Notes under the pieces: generated by a model
Seen by the model: the letters and a program-made list of their open reading frames with translations, nothing else
What the model was told of the DNA's origin: nothing
Databases searched by the model: none
Part shown: piece by piece, positions 859-61,803 of the stretch
How positions within the stretch are numbered: the first letter of the stretch is position 1
How the letters are laid out: each line of letters begins with the position of its first letter
Source: Aphrocallistes beatrix
Taxonomy: Eukaryota > Porifera > Hexactinellida > Sceptrulophora > Aphrocallistidae
Assembly (NCBI GenBank): GCA_963281255.1
Contig: OY725505.1
Span: forward strand, 1,984,001-2,048,000
Length of the DNA stretch: 64,000 nt
Reading direction: 5' to 3'
Program-made: the position numbers and the translations under genes

Positions 859-14248
<13,390 letters not shown>

Positions 14249-15850: not shown

Positions 15851-17274
15851 GCCACTGTACTAGAGGATCCTGGCTATGCAGCAAACAATTTCATTCTCAC
15901 TGAGACGCAATTTCATAATTCTGAAGCAAATTGGTCGGTCCCCTTCTTAAAATGAGTTATGAAGAACCAGAAAATAGTTTAAATTTAATTATCAGCTTAT
16001 GACGGCCAAATTCAATAGATTTGCTAGGAAATGCAGATTTCTGCGCGATCCTGGTTTTACTAGCCCTAAGGGAGGCTCAATGGGTTTCGACCTTCAAATG
16101 AGCCTCAGCAGCGCCGGCGCCACTGGTCCGGTTGGTCCGGTTTTAACCGGACCACTTTTCAAAAGTGCCCCAGGTTGGTCATGATAAACCGGACAACTTT
16201 TCAAAAGTAGTAAGGTCGGTAAAGTAAAAACCGGACCACTTCTAAAACCGTGGCACCGGCGCTGTGAGGGTCTACTGGCGGGTCACTTGGGCCATATGTA
16301 CACAAGTCCAAAGATAGAAGCACGTAAGCACAACGAAGTCTCCCCCTCCCTATTCTTAATGGAACATCAATTATCCGAACCCCTCGGTGAATCTAACTAG
16401 TATGTATATAAAATTTGGAAATGATCCTACTTAAACGGTATCGTAGTACCAGCAGTCCCTCTAGAATTGTAAATGTAGTTACGCCCCTGAACTCCCAAGG
16501 TTGTTTCGAAAATTTCGACAGTAAGGGGCTGCTACTTTTCAAACCTGAAGGAAGCGCTGTTCACACAGCAGTGTGATTGCGCTGCACAAACACACTGCTG
16601 CGAACAGAGCTTCCAAACATTGATTTTACATCTTGTATTAGCAAATCGTTATCAGTAGATAGATAGTCGGAGAAGAGTACTTATCCTAAAGGGGACTGGA
16701 TCTAGGGCCACAAGTCAGACATTCCTAATTTATGGAATATTCCATTCCAGATTATCTCAGTCAGCATATAGTGAAAAGTCGGCAAACTAAAAAGCAACAA
16801 GTCTGCTAAACATTTCTACACTGCAAAGTTCTTTGTAACGATTCCACTTTACTCATGCTAGTGTGGGAAATCGGCATCTGCTCTCAGACGCTCGAACAAT
16901 AATACTTGCGGGGTGCACGCAGACTGAAGACTGGCTTAGTTATGCCTTGGCTTTGATTCATATGAATTAGAAAACAAACAAAGTAAGTAACAGTATTTGT
17001 AAATTATTATTCGCAAAAAAAACTAGGAAAATGAGAGAAAGCAAGTTTACTACTTTGATATAAATCTTTGTTTTTCTGGATCATATTATTTAGAAAAAAG
17101 AAAATACTAAAATAAATGTAGTATTAGTAATATAATGCATTTAATCACAAAATTTTAATAAACACAAAGTTCAAAGCAAATAATGAATAAAAGTAGAAAT
17201 AAATAGTTTAGAAAGAATTATTAATACTTCTAAAGAATGTAGCCTAACAATACAATAAATAAACGAAACTAGAG
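15851..17274. other. Intergenic DNA between MBTPS1 and the NHL gene
   Basis: Apart from the MITE at 16107-16264, I recognise nothing. 16545-16610 has a small inverted repeat around 'cacacagcagtgtg...cacactgctg'. Confidence 0.35.
16107..16264. mobile_element. Short GC-rich MITE
   Basis: Inverted ends CAGCGCCGGCGCCAC and GTGGCACCGGCGCTG around repeats of 'ccggaccactttt'. Flanks TGAGCCTC and TGAGGGTC match at six of eight bases, suggesting an old 8-bp duplication. Confidence 0.5.
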
Positions 17275-18508
17275 TCAGAATAGTTGGATGCAATGATTGG
17301 GATTCTGAGAAGCTACTATTATTCTATCTTCAGAGTCTAGAGCTAATCCTGTAACATCAATGAACTCTCTTCCATCTTCTCCTCTCTGACCGAATTTGTG
17401 TATCAATTCTCCTGTGCTAGAGAAGATTAACACACAATTAGTAGCTATATCCGTCATTATAATGTTTCTAGCTTTATCTATATAGAAGTAGCATGGATCT
17501 ATCACTAGGCTCCTTTCTCCATGAGGTATTATCTGTCTGATAAGCTGGTGAGAATAATTATAGTAACGAACACACGGATCTCCTAACGTCAACACTATAA
17601 CTTCATCCAAACTCAGCTTAACATCTCTGGGAGAGGGAATATCCTCAATCAATGAATGGAACGTAAGATCCAAGTTTAAACATTGAATTCTAGCATTACT
17701 CATGTGACAAATGTAAATTATTTTCTTCTCGTTTGATACAGCAACTCCCCTAGAACCATTAAATTCTAGTTTTCTTTTCCCTCCCTTTCCAACAGAGTTT
17801 AAGAATTTCCCTTCAGTACTATGCACATTCAGGGAATTGTTCCTGAACTGCGTAACATAGACTTTGTTATGATTGATACATATGCCAGCTGGCCAATCCA
17901 TCTTCTCTTTGAAATCAAATATGAATTCCAGATTTTTAGTAAACACTTGTACACGACAGTTCCCTGAATCACAGATGTAAACATTGTCAGTTTCTGAATC
18001 TATTGCGATTGATCCCGGATTGTAGAACACTCTGGGTGATGTACATATACTAGATTTGTGTTTACAATCAATCATGAGAGGTTCTCCTTTAGATTCATAG
18101 AGGGACAGCACTCACTTCAATCGCTCCTATCTTGCTAAGTTTATTGAATACATTCTCATCCCACTTCAACACTATTCTCTGCATGCTATCGAGATCTCTC
18201 TCAGACTTAGTTGCTATCTCTCTCATGTGTGCTTCCAACACAGACACACACTTCTTCACAATTTTATTATTTTCATTTTCCTTCACAGAGGATAGTTGCA
18301 ACTCTATCAGATGGTTTAGCTCCTCAATCTGTTGGTTGACCCCTTCCCCCTTGTACCTAACCACCAGCTCATCCAGCTCTGACAATAGAGTGGCTTCCCT
18401 CTCCACTAACACCTGATTAGATCTCTGGAACTTTGTGGCTATTTCCCTCCTCACTTTCTCCACCTGAGAGAGGAATGAATCACTTCTCAACAAATTAGCA
18501 CTAGCCAT
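17275..18508 (-). pseudogene. TRIM-like coiled-coil/NHL-repeat protein with one frame break
   Basis: An N-terminal segment (start 18508) forms a charged coiled coil of about 125 residues (e.g. FLSQVEKVRREIATKFQRS). It is followed in another frame by a six-bladed NHL-type propeller (from about 18100 to the stop at 17275) with repeats such as GSIAIDSETDNVYICDSGN and GLALDSEDRIIVASQN. No RING or B-box precedes it. Such proteins often act as ubiquitin-ligase scaffolds or RNA/protein binders. The two segments overlap by 17 bases at 18095-18111; one base must be skipped (+1) to join them. No in-phase splice pair bridges it, although GTGAGT occurs there. It may be a single-base assembly error or a recent disabling insertion; the rest is intact, so the locus may be functional. 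Confidence 0.75.
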
Positions 18509-19120
18509 TTCCTAATGGTGTTGGATTTTATTATAATCAACTAGAGTTATTAATAGAGACGTAGTATCTAATATATGCAAATTGATTGACGAACTGGGGG
18601 GGATGTTAGAAATGTAAAATTTAGCACACAGGTAAATAATAATTAGTCTACAAGGGAGTTCGAAGATCTAAGCGAAATATTCACACCTCGCTGAGATAAG
18701 TGACAAATTCTGTTGACCAATCAAATTCGATTATTTTATAATTCAAATATATTGCGATCTAAACAATATTCTTACATTTACAATGTATACAATCAAAGGG
18801 ACTATTTGTGATTGAAATGCATTGGTTCATGTGAGAACTATTCAACTGTCGGGATTATATCAATGAATGACAAATTTTTACAAAGTTTTAGATATGGGAT
18901 TGGTAGCGCCATTTCGGACAATTTGATCCTGGCTCTACCAAATCTAGAAGAGCCTGTGTTTAACATGACTACTAATCAGTATTAGTTTCAGTAAAATTAA
19001 ACATCATAAGACTAAACTTCATATATAAATTGCTAGTTAAGTTAATAACATTGTATGCAAATGCACTAGACTCATAAGCGATATCTATCACAGATCTATT
19101 CCGGAAAGAGCGTCCAATCT
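18509..19120. other. Short intergenic region with a family B Helitron-like remnant
   Basis: 18655-18860 matches, in the opposite orientation, the interior of the element at 37512-38265 (shared words ATTGCATTGGTT-like, TTCGAAGATCTAAGCGAAAT and GACCAATCAAATTCGATT). It lies just upstream of the NHL gene, so it may overlap its promoter. Confidence 0.4.
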
Positions 19121-20207
19121 CTACTTGAGAGAAGCTAGCCTCTGAACGGCTGATTCCAGTGTCTATCTTGCTTAGCGAAGCAGAGTCTTATGAACCTGTC
19201 AGGTATCCCGGGGGGCTGCGTACAGAAAGAGGACACGGGGATGGTAGAAAGTCCGAACTCCCGACACATCCAGAGCGAGAAAGTCACATCGTAAGCCTGA
19301 TCCAGTGGATCGGCGGTGTCTGCAATCTCCTGGATTATTGGCACCTCCAGCAGCAGGAAGTAGGTAGCGGTGCACCTAATAGGAGAGAGACCCAAATCCT
19401 TCATAGCTGAGTACAGCCTGTCCCTCTTCACCTCCAGCTCAGCTCTCAGCTGGCAGAGGTAGCTGTCTGCGGTTCCTGACAGCTTCGCCTCGCGTCTAAG
19501 CACCTCCGCCACCGCGTGCTGCACAGGAGTACATCCAGTCATGCCCGCACCGAGGAGAACCTCCTCCAGACGACCAATCAGTTCCGAGGGTCCCACGCCC
19601 CACCCCAGCCTCCACCCGGTGGCAGAGAACAGCTTCCCGGCAGAGAAGATGGACAGCGTGCGCTCCCACATTCCTTCCAATGCGGCTATTCGCACATGCG
19701 CTCTACCGTCGAACACCATCCACTCGTAGACCTCGTCCGAGAGGACCAGGAGCTTGTGTTCACGACAGAGCCTGGCCACCATCTCCACCTCTTCTCGACT
19801 CAGCGACTCCGTGTCTCATAGCATTCAAACGCCGGTTCTAGCAGAATTACCTCGTCACCCGTTCCGACGAGAGCTCGAATCGCTAGGTAGAGAACTCCCT
19901 GAGCTCCCAGCCACGTGATCACTTGGTCTGGAGTTATGCGACGGTCCATAAGCGGCGAGTACGTATCGCTAATGGCGTCTAATAACGGAGGAATTCCTCT
20001 GGGCGGGGGCGGCTGGTGGTACGAAGGGTCTCGAGCAATGTTAGCAAGTTCCTCGAGTAAAATGCTGGGCGTGGGGAAGCTAGGGAAGCCCATCCCGAGG
20101 TCCACCATGTCTTCTCTACCTTGGATCGCTTCGGAAAACTTGATCCAAACATTCGGGCGGTCTTCTTTATAATGATCGGAAACATATCGCTTCTTGTTAC
20201 CCAACAT
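19121..20207 (-). pseudogene. Kynurenine/cysteine-conjugate aminotransferase-like gene, damaged
   Basis: PLP-dependent class I/II aminotransferase of the KYAT1/KYAT3 type, which transaminates kynurenine and glutamine-type amino acids. N-terminal part (20207-19800): VDLGMGFPSFPTP, then GDEVILLEPAFECYE. C-terminal part (19788-19135): LVLSDEVYEWMVFDGRAHV, SAGKLFSATGWRLGW with the PLP lysine, and TIPVSSF. Between them about 60 residues are missing, including the conserved N-x-P-x-N-P-x-G segment with the PLP-contact Asn, and the frame changes there. A second frame break after CFAKQD hides the normal tail TLESAVQRLASLK, which ends at a TAG at 19121. No introns. Two lesions suggest a pseudogene (perhaps a retrocopy); collapse in assembly is the alternative. 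Confidence 0.75.
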
Positions 20208-39822: not shown

Positions 39823-39873
39823 TCCTTACTATTAAAACTCGATTAATGTATATTTATATATTTATTTATATAT

Positions 39874-41972
39874 GGGGAATTCCATGTCAAATAACCAATA
39901 ATTTCACCACCATCAACCGATTGGTCTGAAATTTGCTGTGTGATAGGGCACTGATATGTCTTTACTTTGTGAAAATTTCAGATCAATCGGTCATGTGGTT
40001 TTTGAGTTATGACGTCACAAATTTTTGAATTTTTGCTGTTTGACCAAGGATTTTCACAATGGTAAAATCACCATCCCATTTTAAACTCGAATAACTCGAA
40101 AAATATTCATCAAATTCTTTCATAAATTGCAATACTTATGTTTTTACATATGGAGAAAACGAAAAACTTGAGGTAAATTAAGTTTTGAGTTCCTTTTCTT
40201 CGTGAAAACTGGAACTGAAACCAACTCCCGAAGCAAACCGGAACTATGACGTAACAAAAATGCATATTTTTGAAACTGTTTATTTTGGGTATTTTACTGG
40301 TTATATTCATAATTCATTGTATAAAAAAATTCATTTGGTTTCCATATGTTCTCTTTGAGTTATTCACATTTTTGTACCTGTAAACGCTTTCTATATATAT
40401 AACTCAAAATTTATCCCTTTTGTGAAAATATAAAATTGACCTGACAACTCTCAATTCTACCATTTGAAAATGCTTTTTTGTCCTTCCTCTATAATATCAC
40501 TAATTCTTACAACATTCTGCAATGATATGTGCATTTGGAATTATAAGTCTGTTGTATATTTGACCACAGACAGACTAAACATAACCAGTGTGTAATGCTA
40601 TTGTTGCTATGTAATAGGAATGCAATAAATGTCACTAATGAGTTGAAAAGCTAATTTTAGAGGGCTAATATTTGCTAAACAACTGATATTTAGTCCGAAC
40701 ATAGCACTTTGTATATAAGGCCACCCATCTAAATCTCAAAAATTGACCAGGGATGCGGTCGAAGATGGTTGATNNNNNNNNNNNNNNNNNNNNNNNNNNN
40801 NNNNNNNNNNNNNNNNNNNNNNNNNNNNNNNNNNNNNNNNNNNNNNNNNNNNNNNNNNNNNNNNNNNNNNNNNNNNNNNNNNNNNNNNNNNNNNNNNNNN
40901 NNNNNNNNNNNNNNNNNNNNNNNNNNNNNNNNNNNNNNNNNNNNNNNNNNNNNNNNNNNNNNNNNNNNNNNNNCAACCCATTCACAGCTCAGTTCTATAC
41001 AAAGAAACTATAATAAAACAACCACTTAGAAGTGCCCTTAAACAACCTCTGAAATTCACAAAATGTGTCGCAAATAAAACCTATTGTGCAATCATATGAT
41101 GACTAATCGAAATTTTAACAACGGATATGGATACTCTGGCGTCATATTTATGTATGCTGGTAATACATTTCGAAGCTCTATTCTGCGTCGTTCATGATTT
41201 TTGGCAGATCATGTATTTGATCAACCATCTTCGACCGCATCCCTGGTCAATTTTTGAGATTTAGATGGGTGGCCTTATATACAGAGTGCTATGTTCGGAC
41301 TAAATATCAGTTGTTTAGCAAATATTAGCCCTCTAGCAAATATTAGCCCTCATATTAGCTCACAAAAAAGCATTTCAAAATGGTAGAATTGAGAGTTGTC
41401 CGGTCAATTTTATATTTTCACAAAAGGGATAAAATTTTGAGTTATATATATAGAAAGCGTTTACAGGTACAAAAATGTGAATAACTCAAAGAGAACATAT
41501 GGAAACCAAATGAATTTTTTTATACAATGAATTATGAATATAACCAGTAAAATACCCAAAAATAAAACAGTTTCAAAAATATGCACTTTTGTTACGTCAT
41601 AGTTCCGGTTTGCTTCGGGAGTTGGTTTCAGTTCCAGTTTTCACGAAGAAAAGGAACTCAAAACTTAATTTACTCAAGTTTTTCGTTTTCTCCATATGTA
41701 AAAACATAAGTATTGCAATTTATGAAAGAATTTGATGAATATTTTTCGAGTTATTCGAGTTTAAAATGGGATGGTGATTTTACCTTTGTGAAAATCCTTG
41801 GTCAAACAGCAAAAATTCAAAAATTTGTGACGTCATAACTCAAAAACCACATGACCGATTGATCTGAAATTTTCACAAAAGTAAAGACATATCAGTGCCC
41901 TGTCACACAGCAAATTTCAGACCAATCGGTTGATGGTGGTTAAATTATTGGTTTTTTGACATGGAATTCCCC
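39874..41972. mobile_element. Fold-back element with ~900-bp inverted arms
   Basis: Ends GGGGAATTCCATGTCAAA and TTTGACATGGAATTCCCC in (TA)n context. Arms about 39874-40773 and 41200-41972; the centre contains the assembly gap. No coding capacity seen. Confidence 0.65.
40774..40973. other. Assembly gap of exactly 200 N
   Basis: A round-number run of N in the middle of a long inverted repeat; the homologous single copy (29772-30952) shows roughly the same distance of real sequence there. Confidence 0.95.
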
Positions 41973-42461
41973 ATATATATATCTCTGTAACGAATTGATT
42001 GAAGAAACTGGCGGGCACAGAAAGCTAATTTTTGCCATGTGGGAGTCTTTTGGCTATGGCTACAGTAATTTCTGAGCTCAGACCAAAATGTCGACTCATC
42101 ATGGAATTATGACGTCATTGTCACATTTTTAAAAGTTAAGCAACACAGTTATTCGGGCATAACTCAGCCATTATAGGAGATAGAAGGCTGAAATTTTAAT
42201 AGAATCTGTATACTAACACGTCTCACATATGATGCAACTATCATCAAAAAATGATGACTCATCACTTTGCTATGACGTCATCATTACTCATCAAAATTTT
42301 AAAAATTGACAAATTTGGTGATTTTTCGATTGATAACGATTTTAAAACTAAGATGGACATTTTTAGAGATGATATCTCCCTTATAATTAACCAATGTCTC
42401 CTCCAGGCGACCGAAGGGAGTGTCTGCCAGCCGCGCAGCGCAAGCAAGCGAAGCGCGCTTG

Positions 42462-46673: not shown

Positions 46674-48077
46674 ATGTCAGATGCCGCAAACTCAGATAGT
46701 ATTTCTGAGTCTGTTACAGGATCATTTGATGGACAGTTACTAACTAAGCATGATGACTCTTCTTCTGAATTATCAGATGAAAAATATTTTTCTGCTGATT
46801 CTCTAAATTCCGATTCTGAGGATATTTCATTTAAGAGTCATTCTGACAAAGTTGTTTCTGTTCCTTCAGATGAGAAATATTCTGTTGAGTCCTTCCACGA
46901 TACTTTTGAAGATGAAGAGCAGATTGCAACAGATATAAATCCTATTATTCCATGTATGACAGACAACACTGCAAATGAATCCATAATTGCTAAACCTCCA
47001 ATTATAGTGAATGAACCTCTAACCAACTTTCAAGAAGAAGCTAGTCTTGTGAATAAGGATTCTCAAAACTCTGGTTCTTTCATTCATGTCAAAACCTCTA
47101 AATTTGAGACTGATAGAGAAATTAAAATTCCCCAATCCATTCACTCACAAAAGAGGAACATAAAGTATGATTTTTCTTGGGAAGAACATTTTACTTTCAT
47201 TAATAATATGAGTCGAGTTACTCCTAGAATTAACAGTGAAGTTAAGAATTTACCTACTGATTATGTAGAAAAAGAACTGCCTGGCTTAAGGTCAAGTCTT
47301 GTAACTGGTTTTGATTCCTTTTCTATCCATTTTTATACTTTTATTCAAGATAACATTTGGTTAGAGCTTGAAAATATTTCATTACGGTCTGATTCTTGGG
47401 ATAATTTTCAATCAAGCTATGGCTCATTTTGTCCCATTCATTCTGTTGATATTGATCAAGAAGTATTTATCATTTTATTTGCGAAATTTCAAATTCCTAT
47501 TTATCCCAAAATTTCAAGACATTTTTCTTTCCATTACAAATACTACTTACAACAAGAAAAGGATTCGAAATTTGAAGGGTTATATTATTATACATTTAAT
47601 GATCTCTATAATAGATACCTAAATTTAGATCTATCTCCAACTACAGATTTGAAAGATAGGATATATACTCAGTATGATTTACTCATTTTGCCGAGTCAAG
47701 AAGCTCACGGACTTTTTGCTAAGATTAAGTTTACCGTAAAAATAACCAAACAAATTGTTCTTCATCAGTCATTCGCAGAGCGGATATACCTTTCTTTGGT
47801 GGTATTCCTACCAAATTTTTTTGATATGGGGAAAAGTTTAGTTACCTGTGATACTATTGATGCTTTTTTTGGAAAAATTTGTTTCTATATTAAAATATTC
47901 GTTCAAAAGACGTCATATTCAGGTAGTGTCAATATGTGGATATACAATCCTATTTTCGATTACAATTTAAATACCTATTATATGTCTCAATATTGGTTGG
48001 AAAATTTTCTATTTCCACTTCTCAAACGAACAAGTGAGAGCTTAAACATATATATTTATGTTTCTGTAGCTCTCTAA
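46674..48077 (+). CDS. RNF213: RNF213-like, reading segment 1 (N terminus)
   Basis: ATG at 46674 to TAA at 48075-48077; 467 residues. First ~130 residues acidic and probably disordered; afterwards a folded-looking region. The stop falls 10-40 bases after the point where the next frame opens (48038). Confidence 0.7.
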   Translation: MSDAANSDSISESVTGSFDGQLLTKHDDSSSELSDEKYFSADSLNSDSEDISFKSHSDKVVSVPSDEKYSVESFHDTFEDEEQIATDINPIIPCMTDNTANESIIAKPPIIVNEPLTNFQEEASLVNKDSQNSGSFIHVKTSKFETDREIKIPQSIHSQKRNIKYDFSWEEHFTFINNMSRVTPRINSEVKNLPTDYVEKELPGLRSSLVTGFDSFSIHFYTFIQDNIWLELENISLRSDSWDNFQSSYGSFCPIHSVDIDQEVFIILFAKFQIPIYPKISRHFSFHYKYYLQQEKDSKFEGLYYYTFNDLYNRYLNLDLSPTTDLKDRIYTQYDLLILPSQEAHGLFAKIKFTVKITKQIVLHQSFAERIYLSLVVFLPNFFDMGKSLVTCDTIDAFFGKICFYIKIFVQKTSYSGSVNMWIYNPIFDYNLNTYYMSQYWLENFLFPLLKRTSESLNIYIYVSVAL

Positions 48078-51000
48078 TTATTAATGAGTATAGTTTACAA
48101 AATACCACTTCGTTATTGGATGGATTTATCAAAATATTGCTTGATTGTGTTGATAGAGGTATTTCAGTTGCTCCATTTCAGATTTACTTTTCTGACTCAA
48201 ATACTCTTAAAAATGTGCATAATTTCTTCGTCGATTATATTATGAAAAAAGGTAAATATCCAAGTGAAAATTTCCTCAATCTTTTTCCCTTCTATCAGAC
48301 CATGTTTTACATTTGTAATGATTTTACGAAATTTCACATTGAATGCAATTATTGTCATCCTTATCATTGGGGAATACCTCAAAATTGTTTATATCCAAAC
48401 TCGTTTAAAAGATCTGAATTAAAAAAATTGTTAGATTTGCACTCCAAACAACCCATTTATCCACTATTGCCATATACTATTATTTTCTTTTCCCTCTCAA
48501 AGGATTACGTTGATTTGATAGAGATTTTAAATATACCTTATTCATATTTTTTGAAATTATTTCTTTATTTTAATAATCTCGATCACAAAAATATTTTCAA
48601 TACCCAGTTTGACATTGAATCCAGGTTACTTACAATAACCCAAATCACATCTGCTCTTTATCAAGAAAAAAATGAAATTCCTATTTCTGAATTTGATCTC
48701 ATTTTCAATCTAACATTGAGACTACTTCAGGAATACAAGTCTGTGAAAAAATTTCCGCCTCAAAATTATAGTATCTCTCTTTTCAATTTGATCGCTACTT
48801 CTGTTAGAATCTTCTATCATTATCATCATGATCGAAATTATGTTGATGATAATCACATTATGTTCAAGGAGAAAAATAAAATAATTGATTATACACTTAT
48901 CTTTTGTAAACAGGATCATACATGTCCCTCAGTGCTAAAGAAATTGGAAGAAGAACTTCACAGATGGAATATGATCATTTCCTTAGATTTTCCTGTTGAA
49001 TATGAATGGATTCAGTCAATATTTAATCATCTCTGTGAGAGACTGTCTCCTTTGCCTACTGATGCATTAATTAATATAACATGTAAGATCTTCCCTGATG
49101 AGCAATACAAATCTTCACTGAAAAATTCTCTCATCGATGAAGTGAGTATGCGGATTTCTCAAAGTACTGATCAGCAAATGGGAAGAATTCTGCAGATAAT
49201 ATGTGGTGCTAAATTATTAAAAAGTGATAGTGCTTCGCGAATTTTTAGTAAAATCCTATTAACTCAACGAGCTAAATTTTCACTCAATCACTTGACCTCT
49301 TGGAAGTCATGGAAATTATTCTTTACTTTGTATTTTTCTGATAGATTACACCTATTTACCCAGGATGCCATATCTTTTTTTGAATCTATCGTACTATTTC
49401 AATTTCGCAATATTCTAGATAGAATTTTGACATTTTCCATATTAGAGTCAGAATTGCAGTATTACCTGCAAAATAAAGATGCATTCCATACTTTATTAAA
49501 CATATCACTCAATAAATTAACTGAACCCAGTTATTCTCAAGAAGTTATAAGAAACAATTTTTCGATTTGTTCGATGTGTATGAATTTTTTTAACGAACAA
49601 CTTAAATATCTAAAAATATTTGAACATTTTCCAACATTAGTCCCATTTTCAGGATTTACAGGGAAAGATATTCCAATTAAAAATATTTGCTTAAAAGATG
49701 GCGATACATTTACAATTACCATTAATCCTGACTTCAATGCTTTAGTCCATTCGGAATCTTTTATTCAAGTTACACAAAGTGGTCCTATCTTCCTAAAATC
49801 TAGTATTTTTAATATTATTATGGAAAGATATTCTCTTCATTTCCGCATACAAAAGCCAGAATATCATAAATTCATTGAGAGTATTTGGAATCCTACAATT
49901 GAAGAAATAGATTCTCTCCTCAAGCAAATTTCAGATTTGTCAATCCCTCTAAAAGTGATCATTGAATTATTTGATAAGGCAACTAAAGAAGATATTTTGA
50001 TGGAGCTGCAAATCTTATCTAGAGGTATGCATTATTTAGGTTATAAACATGAAATTAATCGAGCTGCTGATTTGATTCCGAAGTTTTTTACTCACATTTC
50101 TTTAATACAAACCGCGCAAATTATTAATTCTATAAGAAATGGCTATGGTTTCATTGGAAATTTCGACTTGATACAAAGTATTGAAGATACGAAGGGTAAC
50201 TATGAAACTATGTCTTTGAGGGATATACCTCCTGAAATGCTAGGTGTTAATAAAATATTAACCGTGTTAGATGATCATCATCTTGATTTACTTATTCAAT
50301 TCAATCATGCACAAGAGTTCGTTTTATGGATTAAGGCTAATCTGCCAGAAATAAAAGACGTCAAATCATTTGTAGATCTAGCTAGCACTACTTGTGGAGA
50401 AAATCACACTGACATAGATCGAATTACTTGTTTACTCACAGTCTGTACAGAACTTCAACCTTTAATCTACCTGGATACTAATATCAGCCTTGAAACATTT
50501 GTATCTACACTCGAAAAATTATCTGGCGTGTTAAAAACAAAAAAGAAATTGCCTCAAATGCTCCGTGATGTCTCAGACAATCTCAGTCTTTGGAAAGATA
50601 TCATTAATGCTCGATGTTCAGTTGAAGAAAAGACTTTGTTGATTGTTGAAAAAATAGTAGGACATGGCTATTTTATTCTTCAAATATCTAATCAATTTCC
50701 AGAACTGAGCAAAATGGTCAAATTAAAAATAATAGAAGATAAAGAAGGTAGCAAATTCAAAATATATAATTATGATCAAATAAATGAATATTTGAGTAAA
50801 TTTATGCTTCTTTTTCGAGAATTTGACTCTAAAAATTCAGAATATAACCTAGTTCTTTTTCCAGAAATGTTTGAAAAAATTAGCATATTTTCAAAACTAC
50901 TTCAAAATCTATACAAACTAGACCAATCAGATTTTACTTCATTTTACTTAGAAATCAGCTTAAACCAAGGTTCTTTTCTTGATATGAAGATTGCAGAAGC

Positions 51001-54000
51001 CCAATCCAAATATGCTAAGATTAATGAGACCATTTCAAAATATAGATTAGATGAATATTTTCTGAGCTATTACACTAACTCTCAACTAGTTTACTTAAAA
51101 AATGTTTTAAATTCAATCATTTTAAATCCTGAATTGGTTAACGAAGAACAAATATTTCATTTACTTTCTCTAGTAAATCCTGATATCTCTAAACAATTAA
51201 TTTTCAATTCTATCAAGTTGCTGATAGATTTACCAACAGACACAGAAAGTTTAAATATACATGCTGTTGATAAAAGTATTATTGATGAAACATCTGCTGA
51301 ACTTACTGAGGAAAATTATAAGCTTGCGAAAATCATAGAAAGCAAGTATGGTTGTACTGAAACTCACGCACTTGAAGCCATCCGCCACTTAATGATTAAG
51401 AAGGAAAATATCTCGGAAAAGAAAATATTTACGTGGTGTAATACGCATCCCGAATCTGGTCTATCTGATGAAGATGATACGAATACGAATATTGATGATT
51501 CCACTCAATCGAATGTTCCCGAACTTTTTAACTATAAAGATGTGTCACATTTTACTTTTGATACATTTGCACAAATCGGGAAATTATTGAATTTATTGAA
51601 CAGAAAGAGTAAATTTTTGCTTAAAGGCGAACGAAAATTTCTTCAGCATTTAGTTCTAAAAGACCCTAACTTTATTTTGCTTCCTTCACAAGAGTTATTC
51701 AGATATGTCATTTTTCTCTATAGTCTGAGTGGAAACTTGCCCATGCCATATCCTTATGAAGTGTTGGTCTGTGAAGAGTCCACCACGTCTGAAGAATTGG
51801 ATATATTTTGGAGAAGATCATTGTCTGATCATCAACGTAATTACTATCACATCTATTGTCTTATTCATGTTGAGAAACTTACATTTGAAACGTCTAAAGC
51901 TGCGTGTCAGAGTTTGAGTAAGTACTTAGTTGAAATTAAAACTCATTCTAAATACAAATTAGTTATTTTGTGTTCAGAAGAGCAAGAGCAGAATTGTTAT
52001 ATGGCTTCTGCTTTAGATAAATTTAAGAGGATTGCAATAGACTACAACCTATCAGAAGATTTATCTGCTTATCTATCAAAGAAACTGCGTATAAACACTG
52101 TCGATGCATTGCCCCGTCTAGTAGATCCTGATCACATGACATCCAGATTAGTTATTTCTGATACTTTTGGCGCTGGAAAATCTTTATATATTGATCACAT
52201 GATATCAAAACTCGATTCTATTGAAAAAATTGAAACGAAATCTTTCTCGATTAGTCTGTTTGGAAACCGAATATCTCAGGATAGTATTTTGAGTCAGTTA
52301 GTTAACACTAGAAATTGGAATTCTTGTCAAATGAACTTCTACCATATAGACATTGCATCTACAATACAACATGGTATTGAATCTCTACTTTTCAAGCTAA
52401 TTGTATTGGGCTGTATTACTAATTCGGATGGTGTCATTTGGACTAGAAAGAGTTCAGACTTTTATGCATTTGAAATCACAATGAGTCTTCTGCAGCCATC
52501 AACCCGCCAATTAGTCCAACAATTCCCATATTTCCACTGTTTACAACCAAACGATATCTTAAACCAACAAAAGTGTTTGAATCCATATTTTGTTGGGTTT
52601 AATGAATCCATATTATCTAACACAGAATTTCAGAGAGTATTTTCTTATTTAAGTAATCTTCAATCAATAGACAGCAAAACTGATCTGGATAGTTTTGTAT
52701 ATACTCCAGATTTAGTTTCTAAAGATTATGCTTTGATTGTTAAAGAAATCATCAGACAATGCGGGATTCGTGATCCATCTTGGACAGAGATTTCCTACTT
52801 TGTAAAGTTCTTAAATAAACAGTTAGCAGACTGCGAAAAGTCTAGTTTTTGTCAAATGGCTGCGATGGGAAGAGAATGGAGAGGATTCAAATCATTTGTT
52901 CTTCGCTTAATGATTCACATGTCTCGAGACTTTGCTACTCCATCACTAGAAAGGCCAGCTGATTCAGAGGGTCCGAGATATGAGATCATTGAGCGTAGGA
53001 AATGGGAGAATAGCTCCCATCCCTACATCTTCTTCAATCCCGATGGACATACAATGACATTCCTTGGATTTTGTGTTGACGGTCGAACTACAAATCTACT
53101 AAACTCAGATGATACTTCTATTGTTATTGAGGAGAGAATTATGCCTAAAAATTTATTTCTTCATCTTCAAGATAATGGTGTCAATCTTAACGAAAAATTT
53201 CAAAAACTTTCGAAAAAAGAACTAATTCTGAAGCTCACTCGTGCAATGGGATGCGAGCACGATTTCGATCCTGATCCTAACTATGTGATTACGTTAGACA
53301 ATGCGAGGAAGATATTAGGCATTCATATGCGATTCAGGTGCAACATTCCTGTCATTATAATGGGAGAAACTGGATGTGGTAAAACTTATCTGATTGAGTT
53401 TATGTGTGCACTACAGGCCTATGATAAAACAAAAAATAACTTGCTGATAATGAAAATGCATGGCGGTACAACACAAAGAGAAATTATTGATACCGTAGAG
53501 AGAGCACAAATTATTGCTAAGAACAACAAGGAAAAGTTTGATATTGATACTGTTGTATTCTTTGATGAAGCTAACACAAGTTCAAATATCTCATTTGTCA
53601 AAGGGATAATGTGCGATCATCGCCTTGGTGGAAAACCCATATCTCGCGAAAATCGTTTACAGTTTATCGCTGCCTGCAATCCTTATAGACGCCATAATCA
53701 AGAAATGATTGTGAAGTTAGATCAAGCAGGGTTAGGGTACTTCAAGAATAAATTAGAAACGTCTGATCGTATCGGAAACACACCTTTGCGAGAGTTGGTG
53801 TATAGAGTTATGGATTTACCTGAAAGCCTGGGATCTTTGGTTTGGGATTTTGGTCGTCTGAATGCTCAATCTGAGAAAAAGTATATATTAGAAATAGTGA
53901 CTAAATATCTAAACTCAGTTGAAGGTATCGAAGATCGAAAGTTTGTGATTGCTGATATTCTTTGTACAGCACAAAATCATATGCGTCATCGAGAAGACGA

Positions 54001-57000
54001 GTGTAGTTATGTCAGTTTGCGTGATGTTGTTAGAACTATGCAAGTCTTGCTCTGGTTCTATAGAAATTTAAAAATTTTAAACCCATCTGCTTCTTTGATA
54101 CCTGCTGAATCCAGCGATACAATGCGATACTCTTCAATAGATGATACTATTTATGATATGTCAGATGTTGGCTCTTGGTCTAGTTCTCTAACGGGAGAAG
54201 AGGATTTTGACGATTTTGATATTTTAACATCAAGCGTTATCCTCGCACTGTCTGTTTGCTACAGGTCTAGATTGCAAGAGAGAGAAGCTTTCGATGTTGA
54301 AATTTCGCCCTGTTTTCTACCACCCCTAAAAAGAATAGCGAAATGTAAATATATTTCGCGAGAGGTAGAAAAGTACTATAAACTTCTTTTCGGGGATATG
54401 ACGGTTGGTCAGAACATAGCTGGCAAAATCACTCCTTGAAAGAGAACATATTTATGATGTTTATCTGTACTGAACTGAAGATTCCTTTATTTATAGTTGG
54501 GAAGCCAGGTAGTTCAAAGTCACTTTCCAAATCCATTATTTCAGATTCTATGCAGGGCGCTCGCTCTATTGATGGGAGTATCTTGAAAAATTTTAAGCAA
54601 GTCCATATGATATCTTACCAATGTAGTCAATTATCAACCTCTGAAGGGATAATTGATGTATTTAATAAGTGCTCTGCATTTCAAAGAGGTAGGAATCCTA
54701 CTGAATTTGTATCTTGTGTAGTCCTCGATGAAGTAGGACTAGCTGAAGATTCTCCGAAGCTTCCTTTAAAGGTACTTCATCCTCTCTTGGATGATTCTCT
54801 TTATATTCACCTGAATATCATCCAAAATGATGTTGAAAAAGTGAAGGATTTACAGGTAAATCGTCGCTCAGAAGAAGATCGTGTAGGATTTATTGGGATT
54901 TCAAACTGGGCCCTTGATCCAGCTAAAATGAATAGAGGGATAATGTTGATAAGAGGAGAACCTACCAAAGAGGATCTGATTTCAAGCGCCAAGGGGATAA
55001 TGAAAAGGGGGGAGAGTAAGTTCTTTAAAAAGGATTTTATCAATAGAATAAATAACTTAGCTGATTCATACCTGTGTCTTATTAATGAAGTAAGACAAAG
55101 TAATGATATTTCTAGAGATTTCTATGGACTCCGGGACTTTTACAGCTTAATTAAAATGATTGTCTTCCTCTGCAAACATTATCAAACTAAACTTAGTCAA
55201 AAAATACTGAGACATGCTGTTTTAAGAAATTTTAGCGGAATAGGTGCTATAGATCCTTTTAATTCATTTGATGTCGATAAAATTGTTTACCCTACTGAGG
55301 AAAACAAAGGACCAGAAGATGATCCTTTATCATTAATTCAAGCGAATCTTGATAATTACAAATATGAAAAAACGTTCTATAGCGAGAATAGATACCTGCT
55401 CTTACTAACGGAAAATCTCGCAGCTTTGGATATTGTTCTTTCTTCGCCGAATATCTGGCCTAAAGATGCAGAGCAAAATCGCAGAATATTGTTTGGTTCT
55501 AGCTTTCCTGATGATCAGGAGTATTCTATGATTTGTAGGAATATCAACAAAATTAAAATATATATGGAAACGGGTAAAATTGTTATTCTCATCAATCTCG
55601 ACAATTTATATGAAAGTCTCTACGATGCTCTGAACCAGTATTACATGCATATTTATGGACATCGTTACATAGATCTAGGTCTAGGTACTCATCGAGTTAA
55701 ATGCAGAGTACATGATGATTTTAAGTTGATTATTATAGCTGATAAACAAACTGTGTTCCAGAGCTTCCCACCTCCACTCATCAACAGGCTTGAAAAGCAT
55801 ACTCTTCTGATGTCGACTATCCTACCTGATCAGGGTAAACAACTTGCCGAATTATTAACTCAATGGGCGTTGGAATTTTCTACTCCGATAGATAGATCTC
55901 TACGTAGAATGTCAGAGATCCAAATCGGAGATTGTTTTATTGGTTATCATTCTGACACACCTGCACATATCATCTATACTGTAGCTAAACAAATGAACGA
56001 TGATTTTTCAGACGAGGATTCGATTCTTACACAAAGTCAATCTTTGCTTCTAAAATTAGCATCGGTAGATTCTGTATTTAGATTAAAATATACAAAATTA
56101 GAACAATATGCTCCCTCTATAATTCAAGAATATTTTGAGAAAACTTGTACAACAACCCTTGAGGGTTATTTATTCAAGATTTTGAATGAGTGTATCTTTA
56201 ATGATATTTATCTAATCCAAGCAACGACACACTCTCGTCTTATGAATGAAAATGACTCAACTTGTATGAAGACTAGTTTAAGATCTATTATTTCCTTAAT
56301 CAATCTTCAGCAATTTCGAACAAAACAAGAATTTGATAAAGAATTTGTAAATCACTTACATTTGTCTCAACCCGATTCTGTACATATAATAGTAATTCAA
56401 TCGGAAAATGGGGATTTATACAAGGATCTCATATCGTCAGTTAGGTATGCGGCTCTCGAAATGGTCAATGGATGGCTAGAGGTAACCAAGTATAAGGTAG
56501 TTCTAGTATTTTTGGTTCAACTACCGAGAAAAGCGAACGGATCCGATTTTTTTTGTTTTCATGGTAGAAGTGTTAACTCTATACATGTAGACGATATTCT
56601 AGAAAAGAATGATATTCTTCCTCCATTGCAAGAATTAAACGAAATGCCTTTTCACGGTATATTCTCCTCTGATGGAAAGGTACGTTGTAGTATATGGTTT
56701 AGTGCTCGACAGAATCAAACTTTAGTAGTGTCTATCTTAACCATCATATTATTTTTTTGGTGGTAAATAGCCATCAAATTCTAAATACATTATATAAATA
56801 GACTAGCAGTTCTGTTCACCATGTGTTTACCATAGAGAAACTTCATAATGAGCGATCTTAATCCAAATCGAATCTTATAGTCCAGGAGTAATCGACAAAA
56901 ACCCAAAACAAATTCCGACCAAGACCAAAATAGCAGTGAAGTTAGTCAAAAGCATCCTTGGAAAATATCAAAAGTCCAAGTTTCGGAAGACAAAATTTTG

Positions 57001-60000
57001 ACCCCCGATGTCCGAAAATCCGATTCTTGATACAATTCTCTTTGGAATTGTTTAGAATTGGTGATATTAATTAATTTGAGATATTCTATGCTAATAGAAT
57101 GTCATGTAGGACTCGATATATACATAGAAGAAAAATCCAAATCGGACAATCCGTTGAAATCCCATAACTTTAAAACTATAACTGTTAGAGCTTAGCTTTA
57201 GTGATCAAAAACTGCAAGGACAGTAGTTTCCTATACCTTGATAATACTATATCTAGAGCTAAAACCTATGGAATATGAGATAGCACATGCCAAAAGCAGA
57301 AAATCGCCGAAATTAGGGAGATTCTGTTGAGATTTCTCGAAGAAATTTCAGAATCGATTCAAAATAAACGTCTAAAGTTCGAAGATGTACTGTGGCGTTT
57401 TATTATTGATGTTAAAGCTCAATATTATTAATTTTAAAATTAATATCCATACTTTTTGTTCAATATAAGATGTCATTTTGTTCAATATGAATACTAAGTA
57501 GGAATAGTTCGTGATACTTTCTAAGCTGCAGTTTATGCTGCTCATAGCGTAATTACTATATAACAACCAGATATATAGTACTTTCGCTTTCAGTTTATGG
57601 TTTATGTTTGTTATATTGGCAGCCCTCGCTGTTCACGTATTTACCGTTTCCTCGATTATTTTCAGTTATAATTGGGGTTATTTAGCAATAACATTACAGT
57701 TATTTCCAATCCGTACTTTAAATTATGATCATTCATACGCTAATAATCACATAATGTAGATGGGTCTTAAACCTAGGAAATTAATCCCTCTGGTTTCCAT
57801 TAACTATTAGTTTCGAAGCTCTTGTTAATTCTCCTAATCGAAATTACTGACAGTATACTGTCAGTAAAAAAATCATGCTTACTAGCTAGTAGGCATGATT
57901 GTAAACGACAGCTTCCTCCCCTCAGCGGCAAGAATTTGGACCGCAGAATTTCCAAAGTTTTATACTGAGTATATTTGGCACCGTCCCTCTCAACTCCTTA
58001 GAGGTCATCATGCGCGCAGCAACCTTGTTGAATGCAACAAAGTTGTATTGGTATGTACGTCGAAATGTTGAAAGAAATTTAGTACATCTTGTGTGTTGAA
58101 TTACTCCATGCGGCTGTGTTTGCAACGTGTATGACGACCGTTACATTCAGAGTAATGTTATATGTTGATAATTTTAATTTGTTCATGCATCCTAATGAAT
58201 AAGCTGTAGTGCATCTTATTGTAATATTAAGGGAAGATGGGGGAACGGATAAATCTCATGGAAACAGGGGGAAATCCCACCCTACATTACTCAACCATAA
58301 ATGCATATCCTCAATCAAATTATCATATCAAAAGTTTGTAACATCACTTAGTGGTCCGAACAAACGGAGCCCGCGATTTACTTTTGTAATTTGACTTTAA
58401 AAGTTTTATCCAATGCTTATAAAGTATCGCGAACTATTCCTACTTAGTATTCATATTGAACAAAATGACATCTTATATTGAACAAAAAGTATGGATATTA
58501 ATTTTTAAAATTAATAATATTGAGCTTTAACATCTTACAAGCGCGCTTCGCTTGCTTGTGCTGCGCGGCTGGCAGACACTTCGTGTCCGCCGGAGGCTCC
58601 CTTCGGTCGCCTGAAAGTGACATTGGTTAATTATAAGGGAGATATCATCTCTAAATATGTCCATCTTAGTTTTAAAATCGATATCACTCGAAAAAACACC
58701 AAATTTGTCAATTTTTAAAATTTTGATGAGTAATGATGACGTCATAGCAAAGTGATGAGTCATCATTTTTTGATGATAGTTGCATCATATGTGAGACGTG
58801 TTAGTATACAGATTCTAGTAAAATTTCAGCCTTCTATCTCCTATAATGGCTGAGTTATGCCCGAATAACTGTGTTGCTTAACTTTTAAAAATGTGACAAT
58901 GACGTCATAATTCCATGATGAGTCGACATTTTGGTCTGAGCTCAGAACTTACTGTAGCCATAGCCAAAAGACTCCCACATGGCAAAAATTAGCTTTCTGT
59001 GCCCGCCAGTTTCTTCAATCAATTCGTTACAGAGATATATATATATATATATAAATAAATATATAAATAAATATACATTAATCGAGTTTTAATAGTAAGG
59101 ATATATTAAAATGCTAGGATTTGTTTGTTTGTTCGAATTGATTGAAGAATTGGCAAGTCGTAGAGATACGAAAATTGGCATGTAGGTTTCAAATGATGAA
59201 TCTACGATTAAGTTCTAAGATCTAAGCGAAATTTTCACACCTCTGCAAAAAAAATGGAAAACAATTTTTCACACCTTTTCTATACTAAATAAATGACCTA
59301 CACTATCACAATAGAAATCATTATACAAGTACAACACTACAATATATCGTCATTGTTATTAATACTTCAAAGCCACAACTTATGTTTGATCGCTTAAATG
59401 TATTATAGTGTATGGCAATAAAAAAATTATCTATATATTTTCACACCTTTATATACATATTTTCACACCATTTGATGAATTTTGAAAATAATGCTAGAGA
59501 CTAGCTTCCAACGGCTGACATGGGGTTTTCAGGGGTGTAGATTTCGAATATCATATTTTCAGATTTATATGATAAATTATTTGTTTACTTTTGTTTACAA
59601 TAGATACATAAAGTAAACAAATTGCAAAAATATGCTATAAACTTGCTTTCAACGGTTGACATGGGGTTTTCAGGGGTGTGGATTTCGAATATCATATTTT
59701 CAGATTTATATGATAAATTATTTGTTTACTTTTGTTTACATTAGATACATAAAGTAAACAAATCTCAAAAATATGCCAGAAACTTACTTTAAACGGTTGA
59801 CATGGGGTTTTCAGGGGTGTAGATTTCGAATATCATATTTTCGAGTATATTTGATGATCAATGTTTACTTTTGTTTACAATAGATACATAAAGTAAACAA
59901 ATTACAAAATAGGCTAGAGACTAGCTTCCAATGGTTGACATTGGGTTTTCAGGGGTGTAGATTTCGAATATCATATTTTCAGATCCATATGAGAAATTAT

Positions 60001-61803
60001 TTGTCGACCTTTGTTTACAATAGTTATATAAAGGAAAGAATTCCAAAATATGTTAGATTGAGTGACTCCAGGCGTTCGCAGGGCGACTCTGCGGACACGC
60101 AGTGTCCGTAAGCCGCGCAGCGCAAGCAAGCGAAGCGTGCTTGTCAATAATAAAACGCCACAGTACATCTTCGAACTTTAGACGTTTATTTTGAATCGAT
60201 TCTGAAATTTCTTTGAGAAATCTCAACAGAATCTCCCTAATTTCGGCGATTTTCTGCTTTTGGCATGTGCTATCTCATATTCCATAGGTTTTAGCTCTAG
60301 ATATAGTATTATCAAGGTATAGGAAACTACTGTCCTTGCAGTTTTTGATCACTAAAGCTAAGCTCTAACAGTTATAGTTTTAAAGTTATGGGATTTCAAC
60401 GGATTGTCCGATTTGGATTTTTCTTCTATGTATATATCGAGTCCTACATGACATTCTATTAGCATAGAATATCTCAAATTAATTAATATCACCAATTCTA
60501 AACAATTCCAAAGAGAATTGTATCAAGAATCGGATTTTCGGACATCGGGGGTCAAAATTTTGTCTTCCGAAACTTGGACTTTCTTGAACTTTTGATATTT
60601 TCCAAGGATGCTTTTGACTAACTTCACTGCTATTTTGGTCTTGTTCGATTTTTTTTGCGTTTTAATGTAATTTTTTCGATTGATCCTGGACTATTAAGTA
60701 ATTTATAAATGTAATTACGATGTTTTCTGTCGAGATTGAACTCCAATTTTGCTTCATCTTATTCCCTATTTTTATTAGTGTGCTTCCTATAGTATTAGTA
60801 TAGTAGCATAGCTACTATACTAATAGTATAGGATGCACACTTCATCCCGTCTGTGGGTTTTTTTTTTCGCTACATAATAAATATTTTTACAATATTTTTA
60901 AGTTGTACATGGCCTACAAAAGGTTGGGAAACTCTGCTTCTTATATAGATATCTCAATTTTATTATAGTGTATAGCAATATGAAAGGGTATGTATATATT
61001 TTCACACTTTTATATCATATTTTCACATTCGACGAATTTTAAAAAATATGCTAGAGACTAGCTCCCAACTATTGACATGGGGTTTTTAGTGGTGAGATGT
61101 CGAATATCATATTCTGAATAAATGTGATAATTTACTTGTTTACTTTTGTTTACAATAGATACATAAAGTAAACAAATCCTAAAAATAAGCTAGAGACTGA
61201 CTTTCAATTGTTGACCTGGGGATTTAGGAGTGTAGATTCCAAATACCGTATTTTCGATCTTATATGAATTTTTTTTTTGTTTCAATACATTCATATAGTA
61301 ATCAAATTTGAAATGGATTAGTGAAAGTATTTTTTCACTCTAATTTTTTCACCCTGGTCTCTGAATTCGTTTACATTCCCAGCCGCACGCAGGGCGGCTC
61401 TGCGAACGTGAAGTGTTCGCTAGCCGCGCTCCACAAGTCCGCGAAGTGCGCTTGTAGGTTTAATATTATTTAGAGTTATAATTAAATATATATGTGTACG
61501 TATAGAAGTTTCATATTGTTGGGATGTTTCAGATCAAAAGATAGCCAATAGGGTTATATTTGAAACATATTTTTCATTTTTGTAATATACCATTTGAGAA
61601 ACAGAAATTCCAACCATTTGTTATGTAACGCGATTGTAGTATTTTTATAAATCAAACTCTATTTTAGATGGTCAACAGAAAGCTGGTCTTAGAAAATTGC
61701 ATTCAACAAGCTGTATCTTGCTTAGAAGATTGTTGTGGAAGTGAGATCCGTTCTACTTCTCGGATAAAAGATATAACAAGCATATTTCAAAACAAAAAGC
61801 ATC
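46674..61803 (+). CDS. RNF213: RNF213/mysterin-like giant AAA+ ATPase gene, 3' end beyond the window, two frame breaks
   Basis: RNF213 is a dynein-like AAA ATPase and E3 ubiquitin ligase. Exon 1 (46674-56679) is about 10 kb. Segment 1 (to 48075): acidic, Ser-rich N terminus (SSSELSDEKYFSADSLNSDS). Segment 2 (about 48040-54436): stalk-like helical region, a degenerate P-loop SDTFGAGKSLY (~52160), then AAA3 with Walker A IIMGETGCGKTYLIEF (~53355) and Walker B VVFFDEANTSSN, plus AACNPYRRHN. Segment 3 (54424-56679): AAA4 with FIVGKPGSSKSLSKSI, VVLDEVGLAEDSPKLPL and GISNWALDPAKMNRGI. The frame slips by one base near 48070 and near 54430. A donor AAG|GTACGT follows at 56680; the next visible exon is 61668-61803. 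RING and C-terminal parts are not in the window. Confidence 0.85.
48038..54439 (+). CDS. RNF213: RNF213-like, reading segment 2 (stalk and AAA3)
   Basis: Open from 48038; the natural continuation of segment 1 is about SLIINEYSLQNTTSLLDGF. A TTG at 48116 is not a credible start. Ends at TGA 54437-54439 within ITP, just before the next segment. Confidence 0.75.
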   Translation, partial: ELKHIYLCFCSSLIINEYSLQNTTSLLDGFIKILLDCVDRGISVAPFQIYFSDSNTLKNVHNFFVDYIMKKGKYPSENFLNLFPFYQTMFYICNDFTKFHIECNYCHPYHWGIPQNCLYPNSFKRSELKKLLDLHSKQPIYPLLPYTIIFFSLSKDYVDLIEILNIPYSYFLKLFLYFNNLDHKNIFNTQFDIESRLLTITQITSALYQEKNEIPISEFDLIFNLTLRLLQEYKSVKKFPPQNYSISLFNLIATSVRIFYHYHHDRNYVDDNHIMFKEKNKIIDYTLIFCKQDHTCPSVLKKLEEELHRWNMIISLDFPVEYEWIQSIFNHLCERLSPLPTDALINITCKIFPDEQYKSSLKNSLIDEVSMRISQSTDQQMGRILQIICGAKLLKSDSASRIFSKILLTQRAKFSLNHLTSWKSWKLFFTLYFSDRLHLFTQDAISFFESIVLFQFRNILDRILTFSILESELQYYLQNKDAFHTLLNISLNKLTEPSYSQEVIRNNFSICSMCMNFFNEQLKYLKIFEHFPTLVPFSGFTGKDIPIKNICLKDGDTFTITINPDFNALVHSESFIQVTQSGPIFLKSSIFNIIMERYSLHFRIQKPEYHKFIESIWNPTIEEIDSLLKQISDLSIPLKVIIELFDKATKEDILMELQILSRGMHYLGYKHEINRAADLIPKFFTHISLIQTAQIINSIRNGYGFIGNFDLIQSIEDTKGNYETMSLRDIPPEMLGVNKILTVLDDHHLDLLIQFNHAQEFVLWIKANLPEIKDVKSFVDLASTTCGENHTDIDRITCLLTVCTELQPLIYLDTNISLETFVSTLEKLSGVLKTKKKLPQMLRDVSDNLSLWKDIINARCSVEEKTLLIVEKIVGHGYFILQISNQFPELSKMVKLKIIEDKEGSKFKIYNYDQINEYLSKFMLLFREFDSKNSEYNLVLFPEMFEKISIFSKLLQNLYKLDQSDFTSFYLEISLNQGSFLDMKIAEAQSKYAKINETISKYRLDEYFLSYYTNSQLVYLKNVLNSIILNPELVNEEQIFHLLSLVNPDISKQLIFNSIKLLIDLPTDTESLNIHAVDKSIIDETSAELTEENYKLAKIIESKYGCTETHALEAIRHLMIKKENISEKKIFTWCNTHPESGLSDEDDTNTNIDDSTQSNVPELFNYKDVSHFTFDTFAQIGKLLNLLNRKSKFLLKGERKFLQHLVLKDPNFILLPSQELFRYVIFLYSLSGNLPMPYPYEVLVCEESTTSEELDIFWRRSLSDHQRNYYHIYCLIHVEKLTFETSKAACQSLSKYLVEIKTHSKYKLVILCSEEQEQNCYMASALDKFKRIAIDYNLSEDLSAYLSKKLRINTVDALPRLVDPDHMTSRLVISDTFGAGKSLYIDHMISKLDSIEKIETKSFSISLFGNRISQDSILSQLVNTRNWNSCQMNFYHIDIASTIQHGIESLLFKLIVLGCITNSDGVIWTRKSSDFYAFEITMSLLQPSTRQLVQQFPYFHCLQPNDILNQQKCLNPYFVGFNESILSNTEFQRVFSYLSNLQSIDSKTDLDSFVYTPDLVSKDYALIVKEIIRQCGIRDPSWTEISYFVKFLNKQLADCEKSSFCQMAAMGREWRGFKSFVLRLMIHMSRDFATPSLERPADSEGPRYEIIERRKWENSSHPYIFFNPDGHTMTFLGFCVDGRTTNLLNSDDTSIVIEERIMPKNLFLHLQDNGVNLNEKFQKLSKKELILKLTRAMGCEHDFDPDPNYVITLDNARKILGIHMRFRCNIPVIIMGETGCGKTYLIEFMCALQAYDKTKNNLLIMKMHGGTTQREIIDTVERAQIIAKNNKEKFDIDTVVFFDEANTSSNISFVKGIMCDHRLGGKPISRENRLQFIAACNPYRRHNQEMIVKLDQAGLGYFKNKLETSDRIGNTPLRELVYRVMDLPESLGSLVWDFGRLNAQSEKKYILEIVTKYLNSVEGIEDRKFVIADILCTAQNHMRHREDECSYVSLRDVVRTMQVLLWFYRNLKILNPSASLIPAESSDTMRYSSIDDTIYDMSDVGSWSSSLTGEEDFDDFDILTSSVILALSVCYRSRLQEREAFDVEISPCFLPPLKRIAKCKYISREVEKYYKLLFGDMTVGQNIAGKITP
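54421..56679 (+). CDS. RNF213: RNF213-like, reading segment 3 (AAA4)
   Basis: SLKENIFMMFICTELKIPLF leads straight into the P-loop GKPGSSKS, as in other RNF213 proteins, so no new start is expected here. Continues to FSSDGK before the GTACGT donor; the extra open frame to 56766 is intron read-through. Confidence 0.8.
58538..59101 (-). mobile_element. Helitron-like family A element nested in family B
   Basis: Minus strand: TCCTTACTATTAAAACTCG at 59101 downwards, to ...GCGCGCTTG at 58538. Inserted between A and T of the host's TCTTA|TATATTAAAA start. 564 bp. Confidence 0.85.
59490..60060 (+). repeat. Four internal tandem units of family B (~140 bp each)
   Basis: Units marked by GACATGGGGTTTTCAGGGGTG at about 59517, 59659, 59800 and 59937. 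Each also carries TTTGTTTAC ... GTAAACAAA, a small inverted repeat. Confidence 0.75.
60950..61454 (+). mobile_element. Helitron-like family B, 3' part
   Basis: Two internal units and a diverged tail (GCGAAGTGCGCTTG before T). The hairpin has changed on both arms together: GCGAACGT...GTTCGC-like instead of GCGGACAC...GTGTCCGC. Confidence 0.6.
61668..61803 (+). CDS. RNF213: Probable further exon of the RNF213-like gene
   Basis: 136 bases between CTATTTTAG and GTAAGT, open in phase 0: MVNRKLVLENCIQQAVSCLE followed by DCCGSEIRSTSRIKDITSIF and QNKKH, ending in phase 1. The phase fits the donor at 56680. The (L)xxCIQ.AV pattern resembles the RNF213 region after AAA4 (xxSCIQSAVGMLRD in human, from memory). 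Its codon use fits the AT-rich style of the large exon. Confidence 0.6.

Follow-up and report, generated by a model that had tools for sequence, protein, structure and literature searches.

Nested Helitron-like insertions in an inverted-repeat element of the sponge Aphrocallistes beatrix, their RepHel-coding relatives and their head-to-tail neighbours

An interrupted palindrome and the two elements it holds

The window, a 64,000-nt stretch of DNA from Aphrocallistes beatrix (assembly GCA_963281255.1, 100.5 Mb in 28 contigs), covers C19:1984001-2048000 of contig OY725505.1. Long open frames occupy positions 48038-56766, the second of which (54382-56763) resembles RNF213 (6tay, E 3.4e-161) with a similarity that stops near 56676, shortly before a long palindrome. 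Next to this RNF213-like frame, the palindrome may lie within an intron. It is formed by a host element with long inverted repeats, interrupted in its right arm, and the following features were delineated (window coordinates):

56880-57526: left arm of the host element, with terminus GTCCAGGA; TA at 56878-56879
57398-57420, minus strand: left-arm copy of the target site, without insertion, CTTTAACA^TCAATAATAAAA
58415-58532: right arm of the host element, inner part
58533-60143, plus strand: complete insertion (B containing A) in the right arm, with no counterpart in the left arm
58533-58537, plus strand: first five bases of element B, TCTTA, which rejoin position 59102 onwards
58538-59101, minus strand: element A, 564 bp, within the 5' end of B; 5' TCCTTACTATTAAAACTCGATT, 3' GCGAAGCGCGCTTG
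59102-60143, plus strand: remainder of element B, with 3' end ...GCGAAGCGTGCTTG and similar copies at loci L002-L008
59478-60038, plus strand: four tandem copies of about 141 bp within B
60091-60143, plus strand: 3' terminal block of B, with hairpins predicted by single-sequence DNA folding
60144-60691: right arm of the host element, outer part; TA at 60692-60693

The host element begins with GTCCAGGA, and TA precedes all nine termini recovered from 12 fetched stretches (three of which yielded none), as it also flanks both termini inside the window. These TA flanks would be compatible with a TA target duplication, like that of Tc1/mariner-like elements. The arms measure about 650 bp and are 100% complementary over 439 nt adjoining the insertion point, where the left arm (57398-57420, reverse complement) reads through without insert as GAGCTTTAACATCAATAATAAAA and the right arm holds 1611 extra bases that start with TCTTACAAGC and end with GTGCTTG. 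The initial annotation had described a right arm interrupted opposite an empty site, and alignment of 56880-57526 with 58415-58532 plus 60144-60691 confirmed the interruption; the four further host-element copies fetched (L053-L056) are all uninterrupted at this site, L056 with substitutions in the last bases before it.

That A had entered the first bases of B was equally borne out. Joining TCTTA to TATATTAAAATGC restores TCTTATATATTAAAATGC, with which intact B copies begin, and A splits B between TCTTA and TATATT. Once rejoined, B is a plus-strand element of 1047 bp running from TCTTATATATTAAAATGC to GTGCTTG, while the 3' end of A reads GCGCTTG. Full or nearly full copies of B at 93-98% identity were found in L002-L008, the intact ones representing the empty site for A. 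Sequence related to the 141-bp tandem repeats of B recurs at 61026-61202.

Because A and B face each other, a 54-nt inverted repeat, 89% complementary, lies at the edges of the insertion (58537-58590 and 60091-60144), which could pass for one terminal-inverted-repeat DNA transposon, a 2-base TC duplication being formally possible at this locus. This repeat consists, however, of the 3' ends of the two elements, A and B lying on opposite strands. Elsewhere, B has an intact 5' end and lacks the repeat (L002, L004, L005, L007), and other insertions, with right flanks TG, TA or TT, show no 2-base duplication. With neither inverted repeats on solitary copies nor a target duplication, the single-transposon reading is highly improbable and was rejected. 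The locus was rather built in three steps: insertion of the TA-flanked element with its inverted repeats of about 650 bp, entry of B at an A/T of the right arm, and entry of A, on the opposite strand, at an A/T among the first bases of B.

RepHel-coding relatives and the placement of A and B

A total of 106 Helitron_like_N matches, many of them pieces, were found in the genome, and ten loci were fetched (H1-H10). Two lineages can be distinguished among them. Type I, to which the relatives of B belong, is characterized by the 5' end TCTTATATATTAAAAC, common to H1, H2, H4, H5 and H6 (the last with one change); these five elements measure 9144-10201 bp from TC to CTTG and end with ...GAAGCGCACTTG (H1, H2, H4, H6) or ...GAATCGCGCTTG (H5). 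The 5' end of B is common to type I elements as far as TTAAAA. Type II, to which the relatives of A belong, has the 5' end TCCTTACTATTAAAACTCGAT; the 9505-bp H3 carries both the 5' and 3' blocks of A, and H10 also matches its 5' end. The two types are about 68-69% identical across about 3.5-4 kb. The last 121 bp of A are 88% identical to type I H1 and the last 83 bp of B 84%; the 3' block thus sorts the lineages poorly, and it is chiefly the 5' end that connects B with type I.

H2, H3 and H4 each contain a single open frame, of 1947, 1959 and 1970 aa, respectively. A domain scan of the H3 and H4 frames identified Helitron_like_N, PIF1, Pif1_2B and a C-terminal OTU match, the latter scoring under the curated cut-off in H3. 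The type II RepHel (H3; L025:6224-9400) also displays STPR repeats (PF21107) ahead of the Rep domain. The motifs PHAH and KYxYKGHD are catalytic. Both are aligned between a piece of H4 and its best solved match, Helraiser (7lcc, E 4.6e-284). As the 19 sequences listed include no other Helitron, this match alone assigns no branch. Full-length elements with the same ends as A and B therefore encode a HUH/Tyr Rep joined to a PIF1-like helicase, in agreement with the Helitron-like nature first proposed for the insertions. On these grounds of sequence, A and B are assigned as two non-autonomous Helitrons tied to RepHel-coding elements through their ends alone, and as new families of a known kind of element.

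In the 3' block of B, single-sequence DNA folding gave a CGGACAC/GTGTCCG stem and a hairpin reaching the last base; in A, hairpins were predicted at the 3' terminus itself and some 33 nt before it, as compared with 10-12 nt for the canonical position. Consensus folding of 52 3' ends returned the terminal hairpin only, with mostly invariant pairs, and we claim no covariation since changes are few in this fold. The upstream stem is based on the single-sequence folds of A and B and on the 42 of 53 ends in which matching arms enclose a variable loop. The GCGAAGC mini-hairpin is an unusually stable DNA fold.

Among described systems, the bat Helitron Helraiser shares a homologous RepHel over about 1200 residues (H4 piece) with HUH and two-Tyr motifs (PDB 7lcc) and, as far as its published description goes, the 5' TC, the A/T target, AT-rich surroundings and a 3' hairpin, which is predicted for the sponge elements (PMC4778049). 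It differs by ending with CTAG instead of CTTG; the sponge RepHel has an extra C-terminal OTU match past the aligned part, and the predicted hairpins are placed elsewhere. HELPO2 of Pleurotus ostreatus is described as having a T[C/G] start, a CTTG 3' end, insertion at A/T and a RepHel (PMC4289320), but belongs to another organism and is likened here by description rather than by sequence.

The OTU match raises the question of whether A and B belong to the Helitron2/Helentron branch instead of the canonical one. Helentrons are described as carrying this domain (PMC4067079, PMC5148889), and the 3' end reads CTTG instead of the CTRR of canonical Helitron1. Helentron/DINE-1 elements, by their published account, also resemble the present ones in the great abundance of their short non-autonomous copies, some of which contain internal tandem repeats (PMC4067079). 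OTU domains are described in some other Helitrons as well as in Helentrons (PMC4067079, PMC5148889, PMC9741609). The remaining Helentron/DINE-1 features of that account, a T-rich target, an endonuclease domain and subterminal inverted repeats (PMC4067079), were absent in what was tested here. The 5' end is the TC of canonical Helitron1 and the target is A/T, with none of the T-rich or TT preference of Helitron2/Helentrons. No endonuclease domain was detected at E 0.001 in the H3 and H4 frames, the two that were scanned, and no asymmetric terminal inverted repeat stood clearly above shuffles (p 0.06 for A and p 0.23 for B). Membership in the Helentron branch is thus quite unlikely. We make no claim that the combination of an OTU match, the lack of an endonuclease and insertion at A/T is unreported. 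Overall, and as judged from the shared ends, A and B were very probably moved in trans by RepHel proteins that related full-length lineages of this genome encode, with type I elements (5' TCTTATATATTAAAAC) as relatives of B and type II elements (5' TCCTTACTATTAAAACTCGAT) as relatives of A.

Element ends, target rule and order of insertion

The exact 3' end GCAAGCGAAGCGNGCTTG occurs 4863 times in the genome (2417 + 2446) and its reversed control not once; like the uninterrupted host-element copies, this shows that the insertion did not arise by chance. Genome-wide, it is followed by T in 4774 of the 4863 cases (98.2%). The type I 5' end TCTTATATATTAAAAYKC is preceded by A in 1113 of 1168 cases (95.3%) and by another base in 55, with similar values for the type II 5' end TCCTTACTATTAAAACTCGAT (3807/3988, 95.5%, and another base in 181). 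Within the window, T follows all 12 3' ends, and looser 3'-end matches in 288 kb gave 70 of 71. The exception, H5, has an A after its 3' end; since its two flanks match different repeats and do not pair, this locus may be rearranged. Insertion between A and T, a mark of Helitrons in the broad sense, was thus found at about 95-98% of exact ends. The proposal that every junction falls at A/T holds to that extent and fails for the remainder, the expected neighbour being missing from 1.8% (3' ends) and 4.5-4.7% (5' ends) of the exact matches.

The claim that this single locus fixes the ends exactly had to be abandoned. Insert and right flank both start with TC, leaving a 2-base ambiguity, with A^T, T^C and C^A as possible breakpoints and a 2-base duplication formally possible; the A-in-B junction has a one-base ambiguity. 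At other copies the right flanks start with TG, TA or TT, which reduces the ambiguity to one base, as the element starts with T and inserts before T.

Paralogous empty sites were aligned for H3 (9.5 kb) with L057 and L060, for H4 with L058 and for H6 with L059. The empty site of H1 was found in H7, H8 and H9, that of the L002 insertion in H10 and H9, and that of a window insertion at 39823-42461 in L006, at about 80% identity. The empty site of L004 in H8 is weak (about 77% identity, with a gap that starts 2 bases past the junction). Of the ten insertion events compared, nine (window B, A in B, H1, H3, H4, H6, L002, L004 and window 39823-42461) neither gained nor lost bases where element and flank meet. 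In the tenth, H9, a type II element has entered a type I 5' end, and four bases that intact copies lack, TACG, stand next to the junction, so the predicted absence of gain or loss at empty sites stood in all events but this one. No target site duplication was found, a 1-base T duplication being indistinguishable from insertion at A/T. Together with the genome-wide counts, these other empty sites support the ends TC...CTTG, the A/T target and the lack of duplication initially proposed.

Joined sites were also searched for (21 screened, with alignments inspected for six). With 40 of 675 candidates scored, three of eight sites were matched across the junction, by 29 rows for H3, one for H6 and 30 for H4, two of the latter ending before they reach it; the other five had no match among the candidates scored. 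Two tandem arrays with units of about 152 bp, at C4:4411407-4412455 and C4:4925697-4926293, are related to the repeat that holds the H4 insertion.

The order of insertion, A after B, is supported by the sequence for these two copies. The initial annotation had extended it to the relative age of the two families, an extension that we reject because nesting is seen in both directions: in L002, a B copy (97% identical to B) has an A-type element around it, which is degenerate at its 5' end and is represented without insertion in H10 and H9, and in H7 a type I element starts 28 bp past a type II 5' end. The order of these copies therefore says nothing on the families. Two targets recur at the loci examined: in A-type elements, a TA-rich stretch 25-60 bp from the 5' end, and in type I elements, the first bases. 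What can be read directly from the DNA comprises the structure of the locus, the order of these copies, the ends to within 1-2 bases, the A/T target, the lack of duplication, and the matching ends of RepHel-coding copies.

A separate arrangement occurs at L061:966-1186 (C1:1718064-1718305), where eight type II 5' stubs follow one another at distances of 28, 32 or 40 bp. An A precedes every stub, and the first part of the row has a 60-bp period. Only the last stub enters a full element, and the 467 bp fetched beyond contain no matching remainder; nested insertion alone is thus insufficient as an explanation.

Head-to-tail neighbours and repeated use of a site

Exact CTTG/TC joints between head-to-tail neighbours were seen 38 times, and include the following:

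Window position 15380, minus strand: exact CTTG/TC joint
L062, L064-L068, L070, L071, L073-L077 and L079: exact CTTG/TC joints

Genome-wide, CTTG lies directly ahead of 24 of the 1168 type I 5' ends (2.1%). For type II, G precedes 72 of the 100 non-A cases listed (181 in total); 18 of these G cases were fetched, of which 14 read CTTG/TCC and four another ...TG (TATG or GATG), and the number of type II head-to-tail pairs can be estimated at roughly 100.

Such neighbours might be rolling-circle concatemers inserted in one event. The exact CTTG/TC joints themselves are in line with this reading, as is the description of joined Helraiser ends as circles in cultured cells (PMC4778049). Among the nine complete pairs, the mates of one (L071) are mutually most similar and those of L070 nearly so (ranks 2 and 1). 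However, mean mate identity over the nine pairs (93.84%) hardly differs from that of random upstream-downstream pairing (93.60%, permutation p 0.23), although concatemer mates too would resemble random pairs if all copies arose in a single burst. The 3' variant GCGCGAAGC also argues against one event: five of the nine upstream mates carry it and none of the nine downstream mates does. When every pair whose 3' end could be seen is counted, the variant was found in 5/14 upstream and 0/12 downstream units (p 0.042), and in a separate set of 53 ends in 3/10 upstream units and 1/43 others (Fisher, p 0.018). This skew fits a younger upstream unit, as if a new element had entered the 5' A/T of an older one. 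Upstream units are also slightly more alike among themselves (94.2 vs 93.7%), with a weak swap test (40 of 512). Insertion of concatemers is therefore unlikely, and the nine pairs favour a second insertion at the A/T left by the first.

Composite mobility of the dimers was considered as well and is unsupported: upstream mates from different loci may reach 98% identity (L065a/L068a, L070a/L077a), but their downstream partners are closer to other units. In maize, a head-to-tail pair of dissimilar adjacent Helitrons with an exact 3'/5' joint was argued to result from consecutive insertions (PMC2267711). As presented there, that paper gives both readings for its one pair, cites the bat concatemer argument and leaves the insertion order open (PMC2267711); nine complete pairs could be compared here.

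A second insertion at the A/T left by the first is compatible with a mechanism modelled on the biochemistry of Helraiser, for which A/T preference and circles with joined ends are described (PMC4778049); A/T preference and circles are also described for wheat Helitrons (PMC13286980). The HUH/Tyr nuclease would nick at the 5' TC, the helicase would peel off one strand until it stops at the 3' hairpin and CTTG, and the resulting circle would insert between A and T. Since insertion would leave an A/T at the new 5' end, the same site could be used again, giving rise to head-to-tail pairs.

A bolder and rather doubtful possibility is that Helitron 5' ends, including the A/T steps in their next tens of bases, are preferred landing sites for further Helitrons, hit far above random A/T sites; RepHel would perhaps bind or open these ends, producing same-orientation rows and nests. 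The exact joints at 2.1% of type I 5' ends compare with about 0.02-0.1% expected for 5,000-20,000 elements at random A/T sites, an expectation that assumes uniform choice among A/T steps and takes their rate from the window. AT-rich context could account for part of this enrichment.

The locus represents a clean, self-documenting Helitron insertion that leads to RepHel-coding relatives, thousands of copies and many empty sites. CTTG ends were already known from the description of HELPO2 (PMC4289320), and A/T preference and joined-end circles from that of Helraiser (PMC4778049). The assembly makes testable not only whether head-to-tail pairs are concatemers or the product of repeated site use, but also how strict the CTRR and A/T rules are. 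These elements are ordinary in kind, but their abundance allows old arguments on Helitron site choice and reuse to be put to the test.
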